Source: Pirellulales bacterium (GTDB lineage Bacteria > Planctomycetota > Planctomycetia > Pirellulales > DATAWG01). From it: a DNA stretch of 43,139 bases. Positions 2,375 through 19,912 of the stretch are shown one piece after another. Position numbers and translations under genes: made by a program. The stretch lies in assembly GCA_035939775.1 (NCBI GenBank), contig DASZFO010000110.1, forward strand, positions 1 to 43,139, in the 5' to 3' direction. The notes under the pieces were generated by a model, which worked only from the letters and a program-made list of their open reading frames with translations, made no database searches and was not told the DNA's origin. Numbering within the stretch: the first letter of the stretch is position 1; every line of letters begins with the position of its first letter.

Positions 2375-3361
2375 ATGAACCGACGCACCGGCGTAGTATT
2401 TTATCGTTTGCGGCGGCGCCGTCTTGCGATGGCATTTCTTTCGGCCGCGCTTTGGATTGGCGCGAGCGCCCGAGCACACGCGGGCCTCATCATCACTCCC
2501 GCGTTCGATAGCACCATCACCAGCGATCCCAACAAGGCGGCGATCGAAGGGGTGATCAATCAGGCAATCGGCGTGTACGAAACCCATTTCACCGATCCGA
2601 TCATAGTCTCGATCGACTTTGCGGAAATGACGAGTGGACTGGGCCAAAGCAGTTACACCGTCTATAAGATTTCCTACCAGCAGTTCATCAACCAGCTTGT
2701 TGCCGACGCGAAAACGAGCGACGACGCCACGGCGCTTGCTCATCTGCCCAAGGGCGCGAACAACCCCGTCAACAACTCCACGAGCATCAACGTGAAGCCC
2801 GCCAACGCGAGGGCCATTGGAATCTCGCTCGGCGGCGGGTTCGACGGCACCGTTAAGCTCAATACGCACATCACCGATATTGGGAGTCCCGGCACGAGCG
2901 GCCAATACAGTTTGTCGGCAGTGGCCGAGCATGAAATCGATGAGGTCCTCGGCCTCGGCTCGGACGCGGGGGGCACCGGCTTCTTCACCGATCCCACTCC
3001 CGAAGATCTCTTCCGCTACACATTGGGCCCCGGCGGCGTCCGTAGCTACACGAACACGGGCGACAACGCCTATTTTTCCATCGATGGCGGCACAACCGAC
3101 TTGGCGCGGTTCAACCAGGGCAACAATGCCGGCGGCGATTACGGCGACTGGTGGAGCAACAACGGCGGCGGCAATCCGGGAACGAATCCTCCGGCTCGCG
3201 TGCAAGACGCCTTCGCCTATCCCAATCGACATCCAGTCCTCGGCGTTGAGCTGCGAGCGCTGGACGTCATTGGATACAACTTTGTTCCTGAGCCCGGCTC
3301 GGTCACTCTGCTCATCCTGGGATTGGCTTGCTTCGCCCTGCGCTTCGCTAGCAAGCGGTAG
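2375..3361 (+). CDS. PEP-CTERM sorted putative metalloprotease-like secreted protein
   Basis: A 328-residue exported protein. A basic N-terminus and hydrophobic stretch (residues 17-36) form a signal peptide. The last 25 residues are VPEPG, a hydrophobic helix and a terminal FASKR, the PEP-CTERM signal recognised by exosortase systems that process and anchor proteins at the outer surface. Residues 186-190 read HEIDE followed by VLGLG, at the place where related PEP-CTERM proteins carry a zincin-type HExxH. Here the second His is Glu, so catalytic activity is uncertain. It ends 7 bases from the convergent M14 gene. No exosortase gene is in the window. Confidence 0.85.
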   Translation: MNRRTGVVFYRLRRRRLAMAFLSAALWIGASARAHAGLIITPAFDSTITSDPNKAAIEGVINQAIGVYETHFTDPIIVSIDFAEMTSGLGQSSYTVYKISYQQFINQLVADAKTSDDATALAHLPKGANNPVNNSTSINVKPANARAIGISLGGGFDGTVKLNTHITDIGSPGTSGQYSLSAVAEHEIDEVLGLGSDAGGTGFFTDPTPEDLFRYTLGPGGVRSYTNTGDNAYFSIDGGTTDLARFNQGNNAGGDYGDWWSNNGGGNPGTNPPARVQDAFAYPNRHPVLGVELRALDVIGYNFVPEPGSVTLLILGLACFALRFASKR

Positions 3362-3368
3362 ACCCAGT

Positions 3369-5318
3369 CTACGGTCTGCTTCGTTCGTCGCTTCCTCCCT
3401 TATACGACTGTACCTTCACGGTGAACGGCCCGGCGCCCCCAACGATCCAGCGGACGTACATTGCCCCCATGCTGGGAATTGTGTCTAGGCGGATCGCGCT
3501 CGGCCGGCGTTTTTGCTCCTTGGCGTTCTCGAAGAACTGATCGGTCGCGTTCAAGGCGGCCAGCACCTTGAGTTTCGGTCCCGAGAGTGTGACCAGATCG
3601 GGCGGGGTGATCTTGTTGGCCACGTCGGCCGCGGAGTGGGTCGGGATCATCCGCTCGTTCGAGATTACGGCCGTCACTTGTGACAAACCGCCAGCGAGCG
3701 GTTTCACTTCGATCTTCTGCACCTTCACCAGCGGCAGTTGGTCAGCGTGATACAGCGAGAATGCCATGTTGCGGTGGCATTCCTCCTCCAACAGAAACGA
3801 CGGGGGCTGGCGGAGCCAGTTCTTTTTCAGCCCGCCGACCTCGATCCACCCATAGAGCGGATGCTCGACTTCGTGCCAGGGGACGATGCCGTCGCGCATG
3901 AGCAGATCGCGATTGAATTCGTGCAGTTTGTCGTCGCCGCCAGAAAAGGTGTCTTCGCTGGATGCGCGCCGATAAAAGTTGAACGGCGTGAACAACTCGT
4001 TCGTCAGCGCGAATACACCCCGCAGCTTATAAAGCCAATCGATCTCGCAGCCGTAACATTCATAGAGATCTTTGGCGACGTTCATGTATTTGTAGCCGGG
4101 GAGCATTTTTTCGCCGCGATGGCCGATCGCGTCGAAGACCTCCAGATCCGCCGACTCGTACGAATCTCCCTTAACGCCCGGCCCGCAGAGAATCATCCCG
4201 CCGGAATTGTGATATGACTGGGCGCCGGCGATGTTGAGGTGGTCGATGATGAAATCGGCGACCATCCGATTCTCGAGGACCGAAAACGGATAGCGATACG
4301 CGCCGCTCTGGACGTAGTCCGGCTCCCAATGCCAGCCCCAATCGCGATTGGGATCGTAATAGTCGCGCCGGGCGCGATAGACCTTTCCTTCTCCGGGCCG
4401 ATCGTATCGCTCTTGGCCGAGCAGCGTGTAGTCTCCTTTCTCGTCCGGCTTGGCGGGGACCATCATCTCGGGAAAACCCGGATCGGGCTTGTAGCGGCCG
4501 TTCGGATCGCGGACGCGCATCTCGGTCAGGTTGCCGTCCTTGTCCAGATCGTCGCGCGGGTCGTCGCGCACCGCCCCCTCGCGATCGTCACCGACCGGGC
4601 GCTGGCCTGGCCTCGGGCTGTGCGTGCTGTTCGGCCGGTACATGTGGGCGTCGCGCGAGTCGGGGCTCATCATCGACATCAGGTAGAAAGTCCGATCGTC
4701 CACTAACTGACGGACAAACGGCACTCGGTCGTACATCTCCAGGAGATACCAGGCGGTGTAGAGCACGACTTCGCTGGCTTGAATCTCGTTGGCATGGATT
4801 CCGCCGTCGATCCAGAAAGCGGGCTTGTCCGCATCATTCCCCTTGCGGAAGTTGGTGATGGTGAGCACCCACATCTCGCGGCCGCCGAAGGATTTTCCGA
4901 GGATCGAGAGCCGCGCGCGCTCGGGAAACGCCTTGGCCAATTGCTGGAGCAGCTTGCTTGCGGCCGCATGATCGTGATAGCGGTCCCAATGCGCCTCGAC
5001 CTTGGGAGTGGCCGTCGCGCCTTGCGGCTGATAGGGAACTACGCCTTCGAGCGATGGATGGCTTACCGCTGTCGATGGCGCGTCAGCAGACGCCGGTGAA
5101 TTGTCCGATGGTTTGTCTTCGCCGTGAGCAGGTAGAGCAGAATTAACGATCGAGCCCAACAGCAACGAAGCGAGGAGTAACAAATCCGGCCTGAAAGGCC
5201 GAAGGAGCCCAGCCCAGGGTGCAGTCCGCCGCGGCGGACGGAGCCCTGGGATCGAATCCCCCGGGCGCGCTGCGGCCTGAAAGGCCGCTCGGGGTCCAGC
5301 ATCAAGCCATTTTGCCAT
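3369..5318 (-). CDS. Secreted M14-family zinc carboxypeptidase
   Basis: A zinc-dependent exopeptidase-like enzyme, probably exported. The metal site is intact: H175-A-N-E178 and H370 (in SYHNSGG), with the likely catalytic Glu at E441 (LTNELF). The segment LLLLASLLLGSIV then AHGED (residues 46-67) is the signal peptide. The 45 residues before it are encoded by a palindromic repeat block (5180-5460), so the ATG at 5318 may not be the true start. A TTG at the beginning of the hydrophobic segment, near 5183, is an alternative. A degenerate paralogue lies just upstream on the same strand. Confidence 0.85.
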   Translation of the reverse strand: MAKWLDAGPRAAFQAAARPGDSIPGLRPPRRTAPWAGLLRPFRPDLLLLASLLLGSIVNSALPAHGEDKPSDNSPASADAPSTAVSHPSLEGVVPYQPQGATATPKVEAHWDRYHDHAAASKLLQQLAKAFPERARLSILGKSFGGREMWVLTITNFRKGNDADKPAFWIDGGIHANEIQASEVVLYTAWYLLEMYDRVPFVRQLVDDRTFYLMSMMSPDSRDAHMYRPNSTHSPRPGQRPVGDDREGAVRDDPRDDLDKDGNLTEMRVRDPNGRYKPDPGFPEMMVPAKPDEKGDYTLLGQERYDRPGEGKVYRARRDYYDPNRDWGWHWEPDYVQSGAYRYPFSVLENRMVADFIIDHLNIAGAQSYHNSGGMILCGPGVKGDSYESADLEVFDAIGHRGEKMLPGYKYMNVAKDLYECYGCEIDWLYKLRGVFALTNELFTPFNFYRRASSEDTFSGGDDKLHEFNRDLLMRDGIVPWHEVEHPLYGWIEVGGLKKNWLRQPPSFLLEEECHRNMAFSLYHADQLPLVKVQKIEVKPLAGGLSQVTAVISNERMIPTHSAADVANKITPPDLVTLSGPKLKVLAALNATDQFFENAKEQKRRPSAIRLDTIPSMGAMYVRWIVGGAGPFTVKVQSYKGGSDERSRP

Positions 5319-5455
5319 CGGTCGATACGCTCTCGCGCCCTTTCAGGGCTTCTCGCTTTGGGGGCATCGCAACCCAGGGTTGCACTCGCCGTCCTTCCGG
5401 ACTGCTTCGTTTCACCCTGGGCTTGGTTCCGCCGGCCTTTCAGGCCGAAGTCACT
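5180..5455. repeat. Block of CCTGAAAGGCCG-type palindromic repeats
   Basis: Several copies and inversions of CGGCCTGAAAGGCCG-like words surround inner inverted words such as CCCAGCCCAGGGTGCA and GCAACCCAGGGTTGCA, with a perfect TCCGCCGCGGCGGA palindrome between. The block spans the gap between the two M14 genes and overlaps the annotated N-terminus of the downstream one. Confidence 0.75.
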
Positions 5456-5479
5456 TGTGCCCAATTGATTAATCTGAAG

Positions 5480-7207
5480 TCACTTCAATTCAACGGTCGT
5501 GCTGTCCGAGCCGACCGCCGGGGCGGAGACCGTGATTTTGGCTTCTCCCGGCTTACCGTCGGGCGTGCGGATGAGCCAGGCCCACTCAGTCTTCTCGCCG
5601 CCGCGGAGGCGATCGAGTTCTTTCTGTGGCGTTCCCTTGAGGTACGTGCTTCCCTTCTGGGCTTCCAATTTGAGCAATAGCGGCCAGATTTCGCCGGTGA
5701 TCCGACCCATCTCCGAAGCCGTGGGAAGATAGCCGGTGTTCGCCACGCTGACGGTGATTCGCTGGATGCCGTCGCCAAGCGGTTCGACCTTGGCCTCGTG
5801 AATCTTGATCCGCGGCAAGAGGCGAGCCAGCTCGAGCAAGAAATCAGTGTGCTTCTCGGCCAGCGGATCGAGTTGTTCCGCGGGTGGATTCAAGAGCAGA
5901 AATGGCTTAAAGCCTCCGACTTCGACCGTCCGATTTGGGAAGTCGGGATGCTTGATGGGGTTCCACGAAACAAAGCCGTCGATCTTCTGCCGCTCGAACC
6001 AGCGCAGGGCGTTCACAGAATCCGCGCCACGCGTCTCCTCCGGCTTCTTCTCTTCGCTCTTCTTCGCCTCGGCGGTTTTGTCATCCGCGGATTTCTCCAT
6101 TGCGATTGCGATCTTCGGAATCCACCAACCGCGGGCGGCAAACGACCAGCGGCCAAATTGAAAGTAGGCCCATTCGGAGAACGAGCCTGCGCCGTTGGGA
6201 GACGGCGGCGCGTCGCTGCCCCCGTGCAGCTTGCGATACTTCTCGGCGATGAATTCGTATTCGGCCAGGTCGTCGCGCTGGACGTGGGTTTTGACCCTCC
6301 CCTCCTTGTCGTCGGGTTTCCAGAGGTGCATCATGTTGTCTTCCGGTGAAAAGCAGAAGACGACGGCGATGTTGTGGTGGTCAAACGCAAAATCGGCCAC
6401 CGCCCGGGTTTCGACTTCCGAGACGGCATTCGGCCCGGCGCCCGGTTTGAAGTACGGGTAGCGAAACGGGAAGTTGCGGTTGAACGCCACGCCGCCTCCG
6501 CGTGCCGGACGATCGGCATCATCGTCGTCGTGCCGCCCCTCGACGTACAGGTCATACGTACCGTGCTCGTTCTTCAGCGGGTCCGCCTCAATCAGCACGC
6601 GCGGGTCGCCGGGGTGCGGCAGGTAGAGGCCGGTCGGATCGGCCACCCGCATCATCGTGATCCAGCCATCGCCGTTGAGATCTTCGGCCTCGTCGCCGCG
6701 GCCGGCATCGGGGTCGCGCTCGTCGGCCGCCTTTCGCAGATTTCCCTCGCGCTCGCGAAATGGCTTCTGGAAAAAGGCCTCGCTCGCATCGGGGCTGGGG
6801 CGCGGGATGATGTAAATCGTCAACTGGTCGAGCAGCACTTTCACCTCCTTGTCGGCGGCGGAGCGCTCGATGAGCCTCCGCGCCATCCGCACAGCCAACT
6901 CGCTCCCTACAAGTTGCGGAGCATGCACATTTCCGACCACCAGGATCGCCGGCTTTTCCGCCGTCTTGCCGGCGCCGATCGTGATCGCCAAAATCTTGCG
7001 GCCGCCGAGCGTCGTGCCGAGCGACGAAACTTCGGCGACTCCGTGTTTCGTCAGCGCTTCGACTTGGCGCGCGAATTCAGAATAATCGGCGTAGCCCTCG
7101 ATCGCGCCCTGCGCAGCGCGCGCGTTTGTCGGCGCGAACGCGAGCAGTAGGATCGAGACGGCGCAAGTCGAGAACCAAACCTGCCGCCCGATTGCGATGA
7201 ATAACAT
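5480..7207 (-). CDS. M14 carboxypeptidase-like protein lacking metal ligands (probable pseudoenzyme)
   Basis: Counted from the ATG at 7207, which opens a clean signal peptide (residues 1-32, ending NARAAQG), the protein has 575 residues. It aligns along its length with the M14 protein next door. The zinc motif H-A-N-E is H95-A-P-Q98 here, the third ligand His is S287 (CFSPEDN), and the position of the catalytic Glu reads W361 (RGWW). All three changes argue against zinc peptidase activity, while the fold and surrounding blocks (DLNGDGW, FNRNFPF, DHHNIA) are conserved. The frame remains open to 7423, but that would run into the next gene and a repeat. The role may be binding rather than cleavage. 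Confidence 0.85.
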   Translation of the reverse strand: MLFIAIGRQVWFSTCAVSILLLAFAPTNARAAQGAIEGYADYSEFARQVEALTKHGVAEVSSLGTTLGGRKILAITIGAGKTAEKPAILVVGNVHAPQLVGSELAVRMARRLIERSAADKEVKVLLDQLTIYIIPRPSPDASEAFFQKPFREREGNLRKAADERDPDAGRGDEAEDLNGDGWITMMRVADPTGLYLPHPGDPRVLIEADPLKNEHGTYDLYVEGRHDDDDADRPARGGGVAFNRNFPFRYPYFKPGAGPNAVSEVETRAVADFAFDHHNIAVVFCFSPEDNMMHLWKPDDKEGRVKTHVQRDDLAEYEFIAEKYRKLHGGSDAPPSPNGAGSFSEWAYFQFGRWSFAARGWWIPKIAIAMEKSADDKTAEAKKSEEKKPEETRGADSVNALRWFERQKIDGFVSWNPIKHPDFPNRTVEVGGFKPFLLLNPPAEQLDPLAEKHTDFLLELARLLPRIKIHEAKVEPLGDGIQRITVSVANTGYLPTASEMGRITGEIWPLLLKLEAQKGSTYLKGTPQKELDRLRGGEKTEWAWLIRTPDGKPGEAKITVSAPAVGSDSTTVELK

Positions 7208-7308
7208 GATGCCTGAGTCCTTGCATTGCGACTGTCCGCAATTCCGACTCTGCTTTGCCCATGCGAGAAAAGCAAGCCCCGCGGCTTGATTTGCGGGGAT
7301 TCGAAGAG

Positions 7309-7364
7309 TGTAGTCCTCACGCTCCGCCGTGAGGTTTGTCCTCACGGCGGAGCGCGAGGAGCCC
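7309..7364. repeat. Palindromic repeat CTCACGCTCCGCCGTGAGG
   Basis: CCTCACGCTCCGCCGTGAGG is followed after a TTTGT by its near-complement CCTCACGGCGGAGCG, making a long hairpin between two minus-strand genes. It has no U-tract, so it is read as a dispersed repeat rather than a terminator. Confidence 0.65.
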
Positions 7365-7365
7365 G

Positions 7366-7917
7366 CTACTCGATCATGAACGGCTTGCCTGGCCGGTCGC
7401 CGTCTTGATCGCGGCGTTCCCATTCGCGGCGGACTTCGCCCAGCCCGTAGACGCAGAGTTCGAATTCGTGGCTCAACCGTTCGAGCAGAGCGTTTTCGTC
7501 GAGCTTGTCGTCGCTCGTCGGGATCGTGCTGGCGATGTAATATGCCCGCTTGCCATGCTCGCAGTAGTCGAGGAAGAAATCCTTCCGCGGGCCGCGCTGG
7601 AAATACTCGAGCGCCTCAGGATAGAGTCCGGTCCAAAACAGCGTGAAATCGCCGATGTGCCGGTGGACCGCGCGGCGGGCCTCGCCCACGCGGGCCTCCG
7701 CCTCGGCCAGCATGTCGGCCACGGCATCGAGCCGCCGCCCGCGGAGATTGCGGACGCTGAAGACCGCGTCGTTGCGGACGAAGCGCGTCAGCAGGTCGCC
7801 GAGATACTCGACCAGCGCCGGATCGGCCACGCCCAACCGCGTGCCGAAGGCGTATTCGGTCAAGCCGGCAAAAAAACGCCGCAGATTTCCCGGCTGACTA
7901 TTCGCTGACGGATACAT
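7366..7917 (-). CDS. Conserved hypothetical protein
   Basis: A soluble protein of 183 residues, mostly predicted helical and rich in Arg, Glu and aromatic residues, with no signal peptide or membrane segment. I do not recognise a named domain. The ATG at 7917 has a GGAG 8 bases upstream and is preferred over an in-frame GTG at 7929. It precedes the two M14 genes on the same strand but is separated from them by a palindromic repeat and about 160 bases, so co-transcription is unclear. Confidence 0.7.
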   Translation of the reverse strand: MYPSANSQPGNLRRFFAGLTEYAFGTRLGVADPALVEYLGDLLTRFVRNDAVFSVRNLRGRRLDAVADMLAEAEARVGEARRAVHRHIGDFTLFWTGLYPEALEYFQRGPRKDFFLDYCEHGKRAYYIASTIPTSDDKLDENALLERLSHEFELCVYGLGEVRREWERRDQDGDRPGKPFMIE

Positions 7918-13274: not shown

Positions 13275-13369
13275 GCCGTGAGCACCTGGTGCGAGTTATT
13301 CATTGACAAAACCGTCCTATACTTTGATTGCAAGCGGAATGCGCTCCGACCTCTAATCCCCAATTCAAT

Positions 13370-14767
13370 ATGGCAACCGACACCCTTGAGCACGCCGAAT
13401 CGCTGTTGGCGGCGTTGAAGCTCGATGATGGATTTCGCCCTCAAGAACCTCGCTCCGAGGAAGATAGTGGACTGAGTGCGACGCTGATCGAAGATCTGGC
13501 ATTGAAATACCTCTCAGGAAAAGGCGCGGCGAGCGGTCGGGCAATTGCCGACCATCTTTGCTTGCCGTTGGTCGTGCTCGAAAATCGTTATGCGGCAATG
13601 CGGACTCGGCAGGAGATTTCGCCCGTCAGCTCGGGCATGCTAGGCGACCACGTGTACCGATTGACCGACCAAGGTCGCGACAGGGCGCTGCGCGCGATTC
13701 ATGAATGTGCTTACGCCGGTCCGGCGCCGGTGCCGCTGGAAGATTATGTCAACTCGGTTCGGGCCCAAAACATTCGCAGCGAAAAGCCGCGTCGCAAGCA
13801 TTTGGAAACGGCGTTCTCCGACATTCTTGTTTCGCCAGAACTTTTGGGCCAACTTGGGCCGGCGATCAATGCGGGCAAAGGAATGTTCATCTATGGCCCT
13901 CCGGGAAACGGAAAAACGACCATTGCTCAGCGAATTACCCGTTGTTTCGGGCAAACGATCTTCGTCCCTCACGCGATCGTCGAAGACGGCCAGATCATCA
14001 AGCAGTTCGATGGCGCATGTCATCAGCAGGTCCGTTCGGCGACGGAGAGCTTGCTGAGGAACGCCGAATTCGATCGTCGTTGGGTCCGAATCCAACGGCC
14101 GACGGTCGTGGTCGGCGGCGAATTGACGATGGATAACTTGGAGTTGAAACACAACGCAGTTTCAAACGTCAGCGAAGCGTCGCTGCAACTTAAGAGCAAC
14201 TGCGGCTGCCTCTTGATCGACGACTTTGGGCGTCAGCGCGTGAACCCCGACGAGCTATTGAACCGCTGGATCGTGCCGCTCGAAAACCAGGTCGACTACC
14301 TGACGCTCGCCAATGGCAAGAAGATCGAGGTGCCGTTCGAGCAACTGATCATTTTCTCGACAAATCTTGAACCGGATAAGCTCGCCGACGATGCGTTCCT
14401 GCGCCGCATCCCTTTCAAAATCGAGATCGGGGCTCCGACCAACGAAGAGTTTCACATGCTCTGGCAATTGGTGGCAAACAAACAGCACATCGACTGCCCG
14501 CCGGAGATGGTGGATTACCTCATTCGCAAGCACTACGCGGCCTGTTCGCGCCCCTTGCGACGCTGCCATGCTCGCGATTTGCTCGAGCAAATCCAGCATT
14601 ATTGCGAATACAATGAAACGGATCCGACCGTCAACGAGCAGCATCTCGACTACGCGGTCCGCAACTATTTCACCGCGTTGCGGGGCGACCAGACCGAGCG
14701 AGCAGTCCCCGAGCAGGCAAGTGAAACTGCTATTGATCGGTGCCAGACGCTAGCTCGAACTCGTTGA
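13370..14767 (+). CDS. AAA+ ATPase with N-terminal winged-helix-like region
   Basis: A cytoplasmic P-loop ATPase of 465 residues. Walker A is GPPGNGKT (176-183), Walker B is CLLIDDFG (280-287), sensor 1 is IIFSTN (327-332) and an Arg-finger candidate is RRIPFK (345-350). Residues 35-110 look like a helix-turn-helix or winged-helix domain. The ATG at 13370 is chosen over a TTG at 13328 because it opens directly on the helical N-terminus. The last 38 bases overlap the 3' end of the opposite-strand REC-domain gene. The substrate is unknown; the neighbours suggest a part in a kinase/FHA signalling locus. Confidence 0.85.
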   Translation: MATDTLEHAESLLAALKLDDGFRPQEPRSEEDSGLSATLIEDLALKYLSGKGAASGRAIADHLCLPLVVLENRYAAMRTRQEISPVSSGMLGDHVYRLTDQGRDRALRAIHECAYAGPAPVPLEDYVNSVRAQNIRSEKPRRKHLETAFSDILVSPELLGQLGPAINAGKGMFIYGPPGNGKTTIAQRITRCFGQTIFVPHAIVEDGQIIKQFDGACHQQVRSATESLLRNAEFDRRWVRIQRPTVVVGGELTMDNLELKHNAVSNVSEASLQLKSNCGCLLIDDFGRQRVNPDELLNRWIVPLENQVDYLTLANGKKIEVPFEQLIIFSTNLEPDKLADDAFLRRIPFKIEIGAPTNEEFHMLWQLVANKQHIDCPPEMVDYLIRKHYAACSRPLRRCHARDLLEQIQHYCEYNETDPTVNEQHLDYAVRNYFTALRGDQTERAVPEQASETAIDRCQTLARTR

Positions 14768-16145
14768 CCAGCGAGCCGACGAGGAGGCTTCGAGAATCGT
14801 CCAGGGACGGTTCGTCGCTCGAGAAAGTAGCCGAATTGATCGGCTCGATGAGCGATAAGAACCCGCTGCAGGTGAGATATCCGATGGGGCGATGTTCGGC
14901 CACGACGACCATGATCAGGCAGCCTTGGGTCGAAAACGCTTCGTAGATCTCGGGAAACGCCGCATTGTGTGCGATGGTGACGGGTTGGGTGAGGGCTTCG
15001 CCTCCCTTGGAGTTCGGTTCCCACGCGGCGAATGCGTCGGTCGCCGGCGCCGGCGAGGCAACGCCGACCAATCGACCTTCGCGATCGACGAACGGCCACA
15101 CGGGCGCCCCACTGCGCCGCAGAGCGGCGAGCATCGCCTGATTCGCTGAATCGCGATCGAGCACCGCGGGAAACGGCTCCATGATGTCTTGCGCGATTAC
15201 GTTCGCAAACGGGCTGCCAGCGGCGAGTTCGTTCTGCCAACTTGATAGCTCTTGCGCAAACTCGTTTTGTTCAATGGCGCAGTCGCCGCCCGATTGCTTG
15301 GCGATCGACAACGTTTCTTGCCCCTGCTCCAAGAGTTGTTCGGAGCTGACGCCGACCCGCCACGGCACGATCGCCGTGGTCACTGATAGCCGAGCGCGCG
15401 ATTCGCGATCGACCTGAGCGGCACGAAAACCATGAGCGACTTGCTCGGCAATGACGCGGGCCGCGGCCGCCGTTCGGCCCGGCAACAAAACCTGGAAAGT
15501 TCCGTCGTCGATGTAAGCCGCAATCGCCTGGCCGCTCGCGTTGTGTTGAATCGACTTTGCCAGCGCCGCGAGCAGGCTCCGTGCGGCGGATTCACCCTCC
15601 TCGCGACAAAGTCCCGCGAAGAAATCAATCGACGTGGTGATCAAAGTGTGTCCCAAGGTGACTGATTTTCCTTCGGTTGCAAACTTGCTCAGCTTGCGCA
15701 AAAGACCACGCACGGAATACATTCCGGGCAGCCGGCTTCTGGAAGATTGGGACCGCATTCGGTTTTCGAACTCAAGAATTCGGGCGCCGGCTCGAATTCG
15801 GGCCAACAGTTCGCCTCGACTGACCGGAACGCGCAAGGCATCGTTCGCGCCGGCGGCAAACCAAGCCGTCAAATCCATGGACGCCGCCGGGTCGTACAGG
15901 AAAATCCGATAAACCGGGTTGTCCGAGCGGTGCGCAAGCGTGGCTTGCGTGGGACCGGATATCGAACGTCCGTCGAAAAGGACAAAGTCGGTTTCACCGA
16001 ATTGCCGCCATGCCGCGCTTTCACCGACGTCTTTGCTCGTTACAACCGTGTAGCCGACGGCGGTCAGCATCCAAGATAAGTCGTGCAGAACGCCTGTATC
16101 GGGGGAAACGATCACAATTCTCAAGGGGCGCGCAGGATTCGACAT
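14730..16145 (-). CDS. Receiver - degenerate GGDEF - CBS-pair signalling protein
   Basis: Residues 8-125 resemble a response-regulator receiver: the acceptor-position Asp is D58 (DFVLFDG), but the usual Lys-Pro near the end is Val-Pro (V106-P107). Residues about 165-300 align with a diguanylate cyclase fold, with the GGDEF signature reduced to DDGTF (213-217), so it should not make cyclic di-GMP. Residues 317-435 look like two CBS modules (QDIMEPFPAVLDRD, then LTQPVTIAHNAAF), which in other proteins bind adenine nucleotides. It is transcribed divergently from the FHA-kinase pair and convergently with the AAA gene. The role is inferred to be non-enzymatic signal integration. Confidence 0.75.
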   Translation of the reverse strand: MSNPARPLRIVIVSPDTGVLHDLSWMLTAVGYTVVTSKDVGESAAWRQFGETDFVLFDGRSISGPTQATLAHRSDNPVYRIFLYDPAASMDLTAWFAAGANDALRVPVSRGELLARIRAGARILEFENRMRSQSSRSRLPGMYSVRGLLRKLSKFATEGKSVTLGHTLITTSIDFFAGLCREEGESAARSLLAALAKSIQHNASGQAIAAYIDDGTFQVLLPGRTAAAARVIAEQVAHGFRAAQVDRESRARLSVTTAIVPWRVGVSSEQLLEQGQETLSIAKQSGGDCAIEQNEFAQELSSWQNELAAGSPFANVIAQDIMEPFPAVLDRDSANQAMLAALRRSGAPVWPFVDREGRLVGVASPAPATDAFAAWEPNSKGGEALTQPVTIAHNAAFPEIYEAFSTQGCLIMVVVAEHRPIGYLTCSGFLSLIEPINSATFSSDEPSLDDSRSLLVGSLVNEFELASGTDQ

Positions 16146-16327: not shown

Positions 16328-17557
16328 TTGCTGAACAACGATTCGGGGACGAACCAACGTGGAGTTCCCCACCGCCTCGCCAACTTCATCGGTCTAGTCG
16401 TGCCGCCAATTTCCCTTTCCAGCAGTCCGCCGTCGGCTCCGCGCCTCGAGTTCTTTCAGGACGGAAGCAGCGAGCTGCACCGCGTTACGATCGAGCATAG
16501 TCCGTTCAGAATTGGGCGATGCGAAACCTCCGATCTCAGGATCGATTCAGTCCAGGTTTCGCGCGAACATGCCCAACTTTATCAACGAGGAAACATCTGG
16601 ACCATTCGCGATTTGGGCAGCACCAATGGCACGCAAGTGAACGGTAAGTTGGTGCGAGAATCGTTCTTATCCGACGGGGATATTCTAGCGATTGCGGAAA
16701 CCGAGTTGACGTTTGTCGCCTCGTCGGTCACACCGTTCCAGAGAATGGCGACGCAGCCGATTCTACCGCGGGAGTCGAGCAGACCGCCTGCGCTCTTGCC
16801 GTCCGAAATCGCCATCATGCGCGCGTTGACGGAAGCCACGCTTTGGCAGGCGATTTCACTGCAATTGGCGATGGTCGTTTCGCTAGGAAGTGGCGAGGTC
16901 GAAGCCTGTTTCGCACAATTGGCGGAGACGGCGAGCTTCGCCCATCCCGAAATGCACTTCCACGCAGTTCATGCCCTGGGCAGACATTATCGAGAGCTTT
17001 CTCGACGCCGCGCGATCGAATTGGCCCAAGCTCAACCCACGGCGAACCGCATTTTTGTGGCCGCCGACGTCGCCGATTTCGAATCGCCGGAGCAACTGTT
17101 TTCCGATTTAGAGCCACTGCGAGATCGGATCCCGCTCGATTGCGAGCTGGGAGTTACGATCTCGTTGCCGGGCATTCTCGATCCCACGGCGCTCGACGAC
17201 GTTTATCGCGAGGTTCGCAGAGCGGAACTATTGCTGGGCTTCGTCAATTTTCAAGGCAGCACGGGTCAAGTGTTGGAACTCGAATCGTGCGCGCCGGATT
17301 ATTTGGTCTTGTCCGACACGATGTTGAAGGGCGTGACGGCAAGCAGCCAACCTCTGCGTCGGTTGGAACTGGTGCTTTCGACCTGCGAGCAGCTCGGCAT
17401 CAAGGCGGTTCTTCCGCAGTGCGCCTGCCAGAGAACGATTGCTCAATGCCGACAACTCGGTTACGAGTTTGCCGTGCAGACGATGACGGCGCACGAAAAC
17501 GCTGACCGCCGCAACGTAGTGGCCCTTGCCGGCTCGCGAGGAGACCGCAACTGGTAG
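16328..17557 (+). CDS. FHA domain - degenerate EAL domain protein
   Basis: Counted from the TTG at 16328, an FHA domain spans residues about 38-130, with GR (63-64), S78-R-E-H81 and N100-G101, the residues that bind phosphothreonine. Residues about 160-400 follow the EAL phosphodiesterase fold pattern, but the EAL signature reads EAC (in GEVEACF) and the DDFG region reads VNFQG, so cyclic di-GMP hydrolysis is unlikely. A GTG at 16400 is an alternative start just before the FHA domain. The kinase gene starts 18 bases after its stop, which implies one operon, and FHA proteins often read kinase phosphorylation. Confidence 0.75.
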   Translation: MLNNDSGTNQRGVPHRLANFIGLVVPPISLSSSPPSAPRLEFFQDGSSELHRVTIEHSPFRIGRCETSDLRIDSVQVSREHAQLYQRGNIWTIRDLGSTNGTQVNGKLVRESFLSDGDILAIAETELTFVASSVTPFQRMATQPILPRESSRPPALLPSEIAIMRALTEATLWQAISLQLAMVVSLGSGEVEACFAQLAETASFAHPEMHFHAVHALGRHYRELSRRRAIELAQAQPTANRIFVAADVADFESPEQLFSDLEPLRDRIPLDCELGVTISLPGILDPTALDDVYREVRRAELLLGFVNFQGSTGQVLELESCAPDYLVLSDTMLKGVTASSQPLRRLELVLSTCEQLGIKAVLPQCACQRTIAQCRQLGYEFAVQTMTAHENADRRNVVALAGSRGDRNW

Positions 17558-17575: not shown

Positions 17576-19912
17576 ATGACCACCAGCATTCAACCTCGTG
17601 AAGAGGTCTTTCCGGGCTATCTGCTGACGGAACGGCTAGGCTCCGGTGGCTACGCCGAAGTTTGGCGCGCGCGCGCTCCCGGCGGAATCGACAAGGCCGT
17701 CAAAATCGTCTACGGCTACTACGACGATCAACTGGCGGCGCAAGAAATGAAGGCGATGGAGCGGATCAAGGACGTCCGTCATCCGTTCGTGCTGTCGCTC
17801 GAACGATTCGAAGTGGTCGACGGCCGGCTCGCCATCTTGACCGAACTTGCCGATATGAGCCTGGAACAGCGCGCCCAGCAGTGCCGCGCTCAAGGGTTGC
17901 CGGGCATTCCCCGTGACGAGCTGTTGCGGTTCATGGCCGACACGGCCGAAGCTCTAGACTACCTGGCCCAGCGGCATAGCTTGCAACATCTCGACATCAA
18001 ACCGGCGAATTTGCTGATCTCGGGCGATCACGTGAAGGTCGCCGATTTCGGATTGGTGAAAGAGTTGGCGGCGCGCACCCAAAACTCCATGGTGGCGGGC
18101 ATGACTCCCACCTACTCTTCGCCGGAAATGTTCGACGATGCGCCGTCGCCGCATAGCGATCAATACAGCCTGGCGATCGTTTATCAGGAAATGCTGACCG
18201 GCGTCTTGCCCTTCCCCGGGCGAACGGCTGCGCAGCTTGCCAATCAACATTTGCGATCCCAGCCGCAATTGGCGGCGCTTGCCGAGAGCGACCGGCCAGC
18301 GGTAGCTCAAGCTTTGGCCAAGAATCCTGCCGAGCGATTTCCATCGTGTCGTGCATTCGTGAAGGCGTTGGTCGAAGCGGTCGATCGATCCGCCACTCCG
18401 GCCGCGGCCACAAGCCAATCGAATGAACGAACTGGGATTCGCGGTCACGATAGGTTTTGCCCGCCAATCGCGACGGTGCCGCGAGGTTCCGACCCCGTAT
18501 TGCCGTCGAGGTCCTCCGCGAGCGCCGCGACGGCCACGCAGCCGACCGAAGTGCAACCGCACGGTACGATTGACACCAAAGCGGAACTAAGATTCGCAGC
18601 CGAGGTGCGGCCCCGGGAAAAAATCGTCGACTTCGCGGCCCCCGTGGTTGCTTCGGCGGTGAAAACGACGCAGCCAACGCTGTATATCGCCGTCGGCGGG
18701 GTTGGCATTCGAATTCTTTGCCGGCTTCGCGACTTGCTGGCTCGTCGCGCAGACGCGTCGCAACGATCTTCGGCCGTGGAAATGATCGCGATTGACACGG
18801 ATCGCGCAGAACTTAAGGATGCGTGCTCGGCGAATTGGACCAACCCACTTCCAGCGACCGACGCACTCTACTTGTCGTTAAAACTGCCCCAAGAGTATCG
18901 CGACGAGGGACGAGGCAGTTTCGAATGGTTGAGCCATCGCTGGCTTTACAACATTCCGCGTTCGCTGGAAACACGAGGCTATCGCCCACTTGGCCGACTT
19001 GCGTTGGTCGATCATGTTGACAAGGCATTGTCCCTCATCGATCGAAAAGTGGAGGGATTGGCGGCGATCCACACCGACGATGTCGATCAACAAGAGCCGA
19101 CGGAAATTAGCGTCGTGTTGTTGTTGGGCATGGGGGGCGGCACGGGCGGCGGCATGGCCATCGACCTGGCAAACGCCGTACGGTCTCGCACGCAGGCTTC
19201 AGGACTCCGAGCCCAGGTTCAAGGCGTGCTGATTTGCACCTGCCTGGGAAACACCAGCGCTTCGCCATTCTCGGTCGCAAATACTTACGCTTTGCTCACC
19301 GAGCTGCAGTTCGTCTCCGTATTTGGCAATCAGGGGCCACAAGGAGAGTCAAGCGGTTTGCAGCAGTTGGAGTCGCGCAATCGGCCATTCGATCTGGTTT
19401 ACTGCGTGACGACAAAACACGGCGCGGATCAAGCCGTCGACGACGGGCTGTGGTCGATCGCGAAGCAATTGTCTTTGGCGTCAGCCGATGGCGTTCGTCA
19501 AATGCTGCAATGTTGCCAACAGGCGGCAACTCCGAAAGAACTGGGAGGGTCGGAGCCCCTATTGTTGCGAACATTTGGAAGCGCCCCGAACCCCGCATTG
19601 CAAGCGGACGCGCAGCAAACGCTCGCCAGGGCGGACGTCGATTTGCTGCAATGCGGATATGACCGACGCACTTTGATTATCGTGCCGTCAAGCGCTAAGA
19701 CGAATGAAGCGATCGACGCGTTGACCAAAGCCCGGCCGACAGCCGCGATCGTTTCCGCCGACGTCGACGAATCCGTTGTCTTTTGCGAAGGTTCGGGCAT
19801 TAGCCCATCATCGTTGGCGCGCGGATTCGAGCGGGTTTATCCTGGAATCGCCGAGGCCGCCGGCCGTCTCTTCACGCGCATCGACATTGACTGGACTGCT
19901 TGGACGTTGTGA
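17576..19912 (+). CDS. Ser/Thr protein kinase fused to a tubulin/FtsZ-like domain
   Basis: Residues 14-270 are a Hanks-type kinase: glycine loop GSGGYAEVW (22-30), Lys K43, catalytic loop HLDIKPAN (138-145, a non-RD variant), DFG 157-159 and SPE 182-184. A Pro/Ser/Ala-rich linker (271-365) follows. Residues 367-778 look like a tubulin-superfamily domain: an opening strand with GGVG (374-377), then GMGGGTGGGMAIDLANAV with the GTP-binding tubulin signature at 520-526. There is no membrane segment, unlike many bacterial receptor kinases. It is the second gene of the FHA operon. The fusion suggests phosphorylation coupled to GTP-dependent assembly, which is inference; GTP binding is supported only by the glycine loop. 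Confidence 0.85.
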   Translation: MTTSIQPREEVFPGYLLTERLGSGGYAEVWRARAPGGIDKAVKIVYGYYDDQLAAQEMKAMERIKDVRHPFVLSLERFEVVDGRLAILTELADMSLEQRAQQCRAQGLPGIPRDELLRFMADTAEALDYLAQRHSLQHLDIKPANLLISGDHVKVADFGLVKELAARTQNSMVAGMTPTYSSPEMFDDAPSPHSDQYSLAIVYQEMLTGVLPFPGRTAAQLANQHLRSQPQLAALAESDRPAVAQALAKNPAERFPSCRAFVKALVEAVDRSATPAAATSQSNERTGIRGHDRFCPPIATVPRGSDPVLPSRSSASAATATQPTEVQPHGTIDTKAELRFAAEVRPREKIVDFAAPVVASAVKTTQPTLYIAVGGVGIRILCRLRDLLARRADASQRSSAVEMIAIDTDRAELKDACSANWTNPLPATDALYLSLKLPQEYRDEGRGSFEWLSHRWLYNIPRSLETRGYRPLGRLALVDHVDKALSLIDRKVEGLAAIHTDDVDQQEPTEISVVLLLGMGGGTGGGMAIDLANAVRSRTQASGLRAQVQGVLICTCLGNTSASPFSVANTYALLTELQFVSVFGNQGPQGESSGLQQLESRNRPFDLVYCVTTKHGADQAVDDGLWSIAKQLSLASADGVRQMLQCCQQAATPKELGGSEPLLLRTFGSAPNPALQADAQQTLARADVDLLQCGYDRRTLIIVPSSAKTNEAIDALTKARPTAAIVSADVDESVVFCEGSGISPSSLARGFERVYPGIAEAAGRLFTRIDIDWTAWTL

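Follow-up and report, generated by a model that had tools for sequence, protein, structure and literature searches.

FtsZ-like proteins of the FtsZl1 type that carry an N-terminal serine/threonine kinase were described in Planctomycetes by Makarova and Koonin (2010; PMC2875224), and the kinase domain on Planctomycete FtsZl1 was noted again in PMC9871819 (2023); the tubulin-like domain has since been reported to be the most frequent of the associated domains exclusive to cytoplasmic kinases of Planctomycetota (PMC11032199; 2024). For FtsZl1 in general, genes for vWA, GTPase, and OmpA proteins are a frequent, though not universal, context. The DNA analyzed here (hereafter the window) is a stretch of 43,139 nucleotides from a Pirellulales bacterium, and its preliminary description knew of no described system with a kinase–tubulin fusion. 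That statement does not stand: because the three papers above report such fusions, the one in the window belongs to an already described family. Among the kinase-fused FtsZl1 (Tubulin_2) proteins of Planctomycetes, it represents a rare short form. As in the kinase-fused members of PMC2875224, which occur in relatives of Rhodopirellula and Blastopirellula too, an N-terminal Ser/Thr kinase is joined to an FtsZ-like domain with a GGGTG loop. However, most kinase-fused relatives carry an insert of 170–424 residues where the window copy has 18; the extended coiled-coil and helical C-terminal region that forms the majority (not strict) architecture of FtsZl1 is absent from the window copy; and the place of the vWA, GTPase, and OmpA neighbors is taken by AAA, FHA-EAL, and REC-GGDEF-CBS genes. 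The non-fused FtsZl1 proteins associated with vWA proteins have the Tubulin_2 domain in common with the window fusion, but neither a fused kinase nor AAA and FHA-EAL neighbors. The fusion and its parts are located as follows:

17576..19912, + strand: kinase–tubulin fusion protein, 778 aa, short form (ORF; Pfam; fused in relatives too)
17624..18376, + strand: Ser/Thr kinase domain, residues 17–267 (Pfam; residue alignment)
18398..18601, + strand: disordered Ser/Thr/Pro-rich linker, residues 275–342 (pLDDT about 30; composition)
18671..19909, + strand: tubulin/FtsZ-like domain, residues 366–778 (PF13809; model; Foldseek)
18695..18706, + strand: GGVG, T1-type loop, residues 374–377 (G374 in 89/89 and G375 in 84/89 relatives)
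19127..19153, + strand: GMGGGTGGG, T4 GTP-binding loop, residues 518–526 (strict GGTG[SGTA]G in 52/89 relatives)
19589..19609, + strand: predicted S7–H9 loop, residues 672–678 (insert lengths; strands and helices of the model)

The open reading frame at 17576–19912 (+) encodes 778 aa in one frame without interruption. Pfam matches to Pkinase (residues 17–267; E 1.3e-30, 107 bits vs. a cut-off of 31.7) and Tubulin_2, PF13809 (residues 369–622; E 1.2e-27, 97.6 bits vs. a cut-off of 27), both far above threshold, bear out the earlier proposal of a kinase and a tubulin-superfamily domain in one polypeptide, as well as the suggestion of PF13809 as the tubulin-like family. PF00091 scored 25.1 bits on the fusion, below its cut-off of 33, and no C-terminal family (FtsZ_C or Tubulin_C) was matched in Pfam. 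The glycine loop, lysine, glutamate, catalytic aspartate, asparagine, and DFG aspartate of Hanks-type kinases are all present (K43; E57; HLDIKPAN at 138–145, with HLD140 and N145; DFG at 157–159, with D157; SPE at 182–184); the kinase core is complete, as the preliminary description had it, and GGVG lies at residues 374–377 as claimed. The GMGGGTGGG motif was also correctly recognized but misplaced: it spans residues 518–526, while the interval originally given, 520–526, corresponds to GGGTGGG. The possibility raised at that stage of two genes joined by a frameshift, or of an otherwise artefactual fusion, is excluded because the same fusion recurs in essentially all relatives fetched; the two kinase-less matches among these are cut by contig ends.

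Sequence searching of the PDB with the tubulin domain returned no match, and fold comparison was therefore needed. The full-length AlphaFold2 model (29 sequences; mean pLDDT 79.7, with disorder at 275–342) recovered kinases only among the Foldseek matches listed, and the C-terminal domain was therefore modeled alone (51 sequences in the alignment; pLDDT 91.5, pTM 0.93). The best PDB match of this second model was CetZ (3zid; E 1.1e-11, TM 0.57/0.67), and further whole-length matches were to CetZ2, tubulins, TubZ, and FtsZ. In tubulin and FtsZ the elements of the C-terminal domain follow the order S7-H9-S8-H10-S9-S10; the model has a Rossmann part and then a beta-alpha-beta-alpha-beta-beta part whose order agrees with this, so that both domains of the tubulin fold expected in the preliminary description are found. 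The fold thus matches that of CetZ, TubZ, FtsZ, and tubulin, C-terminal domain included, at 9–16% identity. Elements from T6-H7 onward were reported as not identifiable by sequence in the FtsZl1 family (Makarova & Koonin, PMC2875224); our model suggests that they exist, though diverged. In contrast to FtsZ and tubulin, the window protein has a fused kinase and no recognizable FtsZ_C, and the T7 catalytic motif is not conserved; matches to the FtsZ-type pattern NxDxx[DE] are scattered over a broad region in 9/89 relatives.

Residue retention differs between the two halves of the protein. K43, E57, D140, N145, and D157 occur together in 88 of the 89 relatives, the remaining one having gaps, and HLD replaces HRD (an R to L change) in 88/89, with one gap. 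In the T1 loop, G374 is kept in all 89 relatives and G375 in 84; strict T4 loops occur in 52, and the other 37 are substituted there (A, S, V, C, and others). Most GTP-loop glycines and the acidic residues D407 and D409 are strongly kept, as is the family signature RRWLYNIPRSLxTxGxRPLGRLA, and the kinase domain is much better conserved among relatives than the tubulin-like domain. No common phosphorylation motif was found among relatives in the linker (275–342), which is a possible autophosphorylation region.

The large length variation of the family is confined to a single site, corresponding to window residues 672–690. It comprises 17–18 residues in five proteins, including the window copy (18), about 170–260 in a middle group, and 314–424 in most relatives. 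Judging from the topology of the model, this site would lie between S7 and H9, at the M-loop position of tubulin. Because L080, the closest relative with 59% identity over 727 columns, has 227 residues there, the window lineage probably lost its insert; the four other short forms belong to the same clade as the window copy, elsewhere within it.

Eighty relative loci were gathered by family-specific motifs. Titles of 78 of these refer to Planctomycetota or a planctomycete group; the exceptions, a "Nealsonbacteria" bin and a "bacterium" bin, are, we would guess, due to misbinning. Every tubulin-like gene in loci gathered in this way that is not truncated at a contig end has the kinase fused to it. 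PF13809 also occurs without a kinase elsewhere in the phylum, and two such loci that were checked (L161 and L044) adjoin vWA genes; L044 also belongs, with L038 and L043, to loci with a common neighborhood whose PF13809 proteins, about 700 aa long, are very diverged and differ from the kinase-fused type, and the vWA gene of L044 lies beside this diverged gene. The genome from which the window derives has a second kinase–tubulin copy (G000:C96:1-12000; L033), truncated by the contig start, which lies next to AAA and divergent FHA-EAL genes of its own. In the window itself, three genes lie upstream of the fusion:

13328..14767, + strand: AAA ATPase (weak AAA Pfam matches; family comparison; remote PDB match to AFG2/Cdc48-type AAA)
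14730..16145, − strand: REC-GGDEF-CBS-type protein, GGDEF motif lost (GGDEF 5.4e-6; other domains sub-threshold)
16328..17557, + strand: FHA and degenerate EAL protein (FHA E 1.8e-17; EAL 0.021, below cut-off)

Only four families recur widely in these neighborhoods, namely the AAA ATPase, REC-GGDEF-CBS, FHA-EAL, and kinase–tubulin proteins, and the REC-GGDEF-CBS member is limited to one lineage. Within the fetched stretches, and counting the window, FHA-EAL genes occur at 69/79 kinase–tubulin loci and AAA genes at 53/79, where some of the loci without one or the other end at contig ends. Gene order varies (FHA-EAL may lie upstream or downstream of the fusion gene, or be divergent from it), but the set remains clustered, and neighboring genes are often tens of bases apart; the FHA-EAL gene of the window stops 18 bases upstream of the fusion gene on the same strand. 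No earlier account of the AAA, FHA-EAL, and kinase–tubulin set was found in the open literature searched (the supplement of PMC2875224 excepted), and the set is apparently undescribed. The AAA ATPase is its most conserved member; what similarity the family has to Cdc48/AFG2-type AAA and to IetA is remote, and the N-terminal part, judged by eye, resembles a winged helix. Four copies occur in the window's genome (in the window and at G000:C308/L077, G000:C325/L078, and G000:C96/L074), two of them apart from any kinase–tubulin gene; because paralogs occur away from these genes, the AAA ATPase may have a wider role. Relatives of the REC-GGDEF-CBS protein score clearly for all three domains, while the window copy is above threshold for GGDEF only. 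Assignment of the locus to a defense system was rejected, as PADLOC gave only generic kinase and weak AAA matches. Elsewhere in the window, tandem related genes at 3369–5318 and 5480–7423 (−) encode zinc carboxypeptidases (M14) of about 648 aa.

The EAL catalytic motifs divide the FHA-EAL proteins into two classes: the window copy retains 0/6, whereas the other class, with 35 relatives, retains 6/6. None of the 35 loci with an intact EAL has an adjacent REC-GGDEF-CBS gene; this gene is present in 27 of the 30 with a degenerate EAL, the rest being one exception (L127) and two loci whose contigs are too short for a decision. The mutual exclusion of intact EAL and GGDEF neighbor yields a Fisher p of 2.7e-14, a value that overstates independence because one ancestral change fits: on the tree, no more than three changes are required to explain both classes, and a single split is not rejected (AU p 0.81), the constrained tree scoring even better. 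The switch probably happened once, in an ancestor; repeated, independent EAL loss co-evolving with the GGDEF gene was considered and set aside, since a single ancestral event explains the classes no less well. The GGDEF site of the window protein reads IDDGTF, with no GGDEF or GGEEF signature, and the signature is lost in 23 of the 24 rows of the REC-GGDEF-CBS family; the exception is a GGEEF paralog in L097, where REC-GGDEF-type genes lie in tandem (2803–6153), one with intact GGEEF and one degenerate. This pair is a possible intermediate of the switch. At three loci of another order, a GGDEF protein with an intact motif lies near or adjoins the gene set, which ties the set to cyclic-di-GMP. 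The FHA core residues (GR, S..H, STN) are kept in both EAL classes, including the window's lineage, in which the EAL site is lost.

Bacterial Ser/Thr kinases of the PknB type have FHA partners, such as those of the GarA/OdhI and FhaB types, and the gene set of the window resembles these systems in its logic of a kinase plus an FHA reader; its FHA protein scores against the FhaB and OdhI models, though below their cut-offs. It departs from them in that FHA is fused to EAL, the kinase is fused to tubulin, and the kinase has HLD, not HRD; no PASTA match was found in the kinase fusion.

Our preferred reading, held tentatively and at somewhat less than an even chance, is that the fusion is a phosphorylation-signaling hub, in which the FHA protein acts as reader and the tubulin-like domain as a platform for nucleotide-dependent assembly or regulation. 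The fusion would be the core of a small cytoplasmic signaling module, in which an active kinase would phosphorylate itself (in the linker) and/or its partners. The tubulin-like domain would bind guanine nucleotide in most members and, by nucleotide-dependent self-association or regulation, concentrate or gate the kinase. The FHA protein may dock on phosphothreonine of the fusion, its EAL domain coupling the hub to an input of the cyclic-di-GMP type; in the window's lineage, EAL and GGDEF domains that have lost their catalytic motifs may act as a scaffold or a sensor. Remodeling or resetting of the assembly would fall to the AAA ATPase, and the output could be some envelope, surface, or membrane process, with general cell division unlikely. 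The fusion, the fold (by model), the gene set, and the retention or loss of motifs are shown by the data; we infer the active kinase, FHA reading, platform role, AAA resetting, and cyclic-di-GMP history; gene neighborhood is no proof of physical interaction between members of the set. The complete kinase core with its catalytic residues kept in relatives, the tubulin fold, the recurrence of FHA-EAL and AAA genes (69 and 53 of 79 loci), and the retention of FHA core residues where the EAL site is lost argue for this reading; against it, a real polymer-former would equally have a tubulin fold this close to complete and T1 and T4 loops that are mostly intact, and no conserved phosphorylation motif was found in the linker.

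Such a polymer-former is a serious rival, if a somewhat unlikely one, in line with the preliminary description: a phosphorylation-controlled cytoskeleton, with dynamic GTP-dependent filaments for membrane remodeling or cell shape whose assembly is under the control of the attached kinase. Consistent with filaments, the domain matches CetZ, tubulin, TubZ, and FtsZ, all of them polymer-forming, in structure along its entire length, the T1 glycine is kept throughout (89/89), and the T4 glycines are mostly kept; FtsZl1 has been proposed as a membrane-remodeling component (Makarova & Koonin, PMC2875224). However, the T7-type motif is not conserved (9/89 by any match), the GTP loop is strict in only 52/89, and in most relatives the loop predicted to make lateral contacts carries a large insert; retention of the kinase above that of the GTP loop, together with the unconserved T7, favors the tubulin part as a platform or regulator. 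The loop substitutions in 37/89 relatives and the much better conserved kinase could indicate a passive dimerization or docking module without nucleotide function, in which only the kinase matters; the strong retention of most glycines, D407, D409, and the family signature makes this unlikely.

That the fusion runs cell division as a replacement for FtsZ appears extremely improbable, despite its tubulin fold and the absence of a detectable FtsZ from the window's genome. That absence, which the preliminary description had raised, was found with two profiles (no PF12327 and no PF00091 match; 13/14 control genomes were positive in both). Yet all Planctomycetota are described as lacking FtsZ (PMC11032199), while PF13809 occurs in only 112/297 genomes of the order searched and 22/392 sampled across the phylum, the other genome examined from the window's own family having no match to the domain; moreover, FtsZl1 is found alongside FtsZ in other organisms. 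It is this distribution over order and phylum that makes a general FtsZ substitute unlikely.

Planctomycetes have unusual membranes and divide without FtsZ, which makes a widespread, kinase-wired tubulin homolog an obvious object of study. In the 16 years since such fusions were described, no partner set has been defined for them in the literature reached; concrete partners and constructs for tests of function now come from the module of four genes, from the short form, and from the change of EAL and GGDEF from intact to dead, and the short form, as a single compact tubulin fold, is suited to crystallography and polymerization assays. The family may, though this is unlikely, represent a complete tubulin system coupled to phosphorylation and cyclic-di-GMP in an FtsZ-less host, with large inserts accepted at the lateral-contact (M-loop) position, a dedicated FHA reader, and an AAA ATPase for disassembly; if so, the state of the kinase, and not GTP hydrolysis alone, would set filament assembly.
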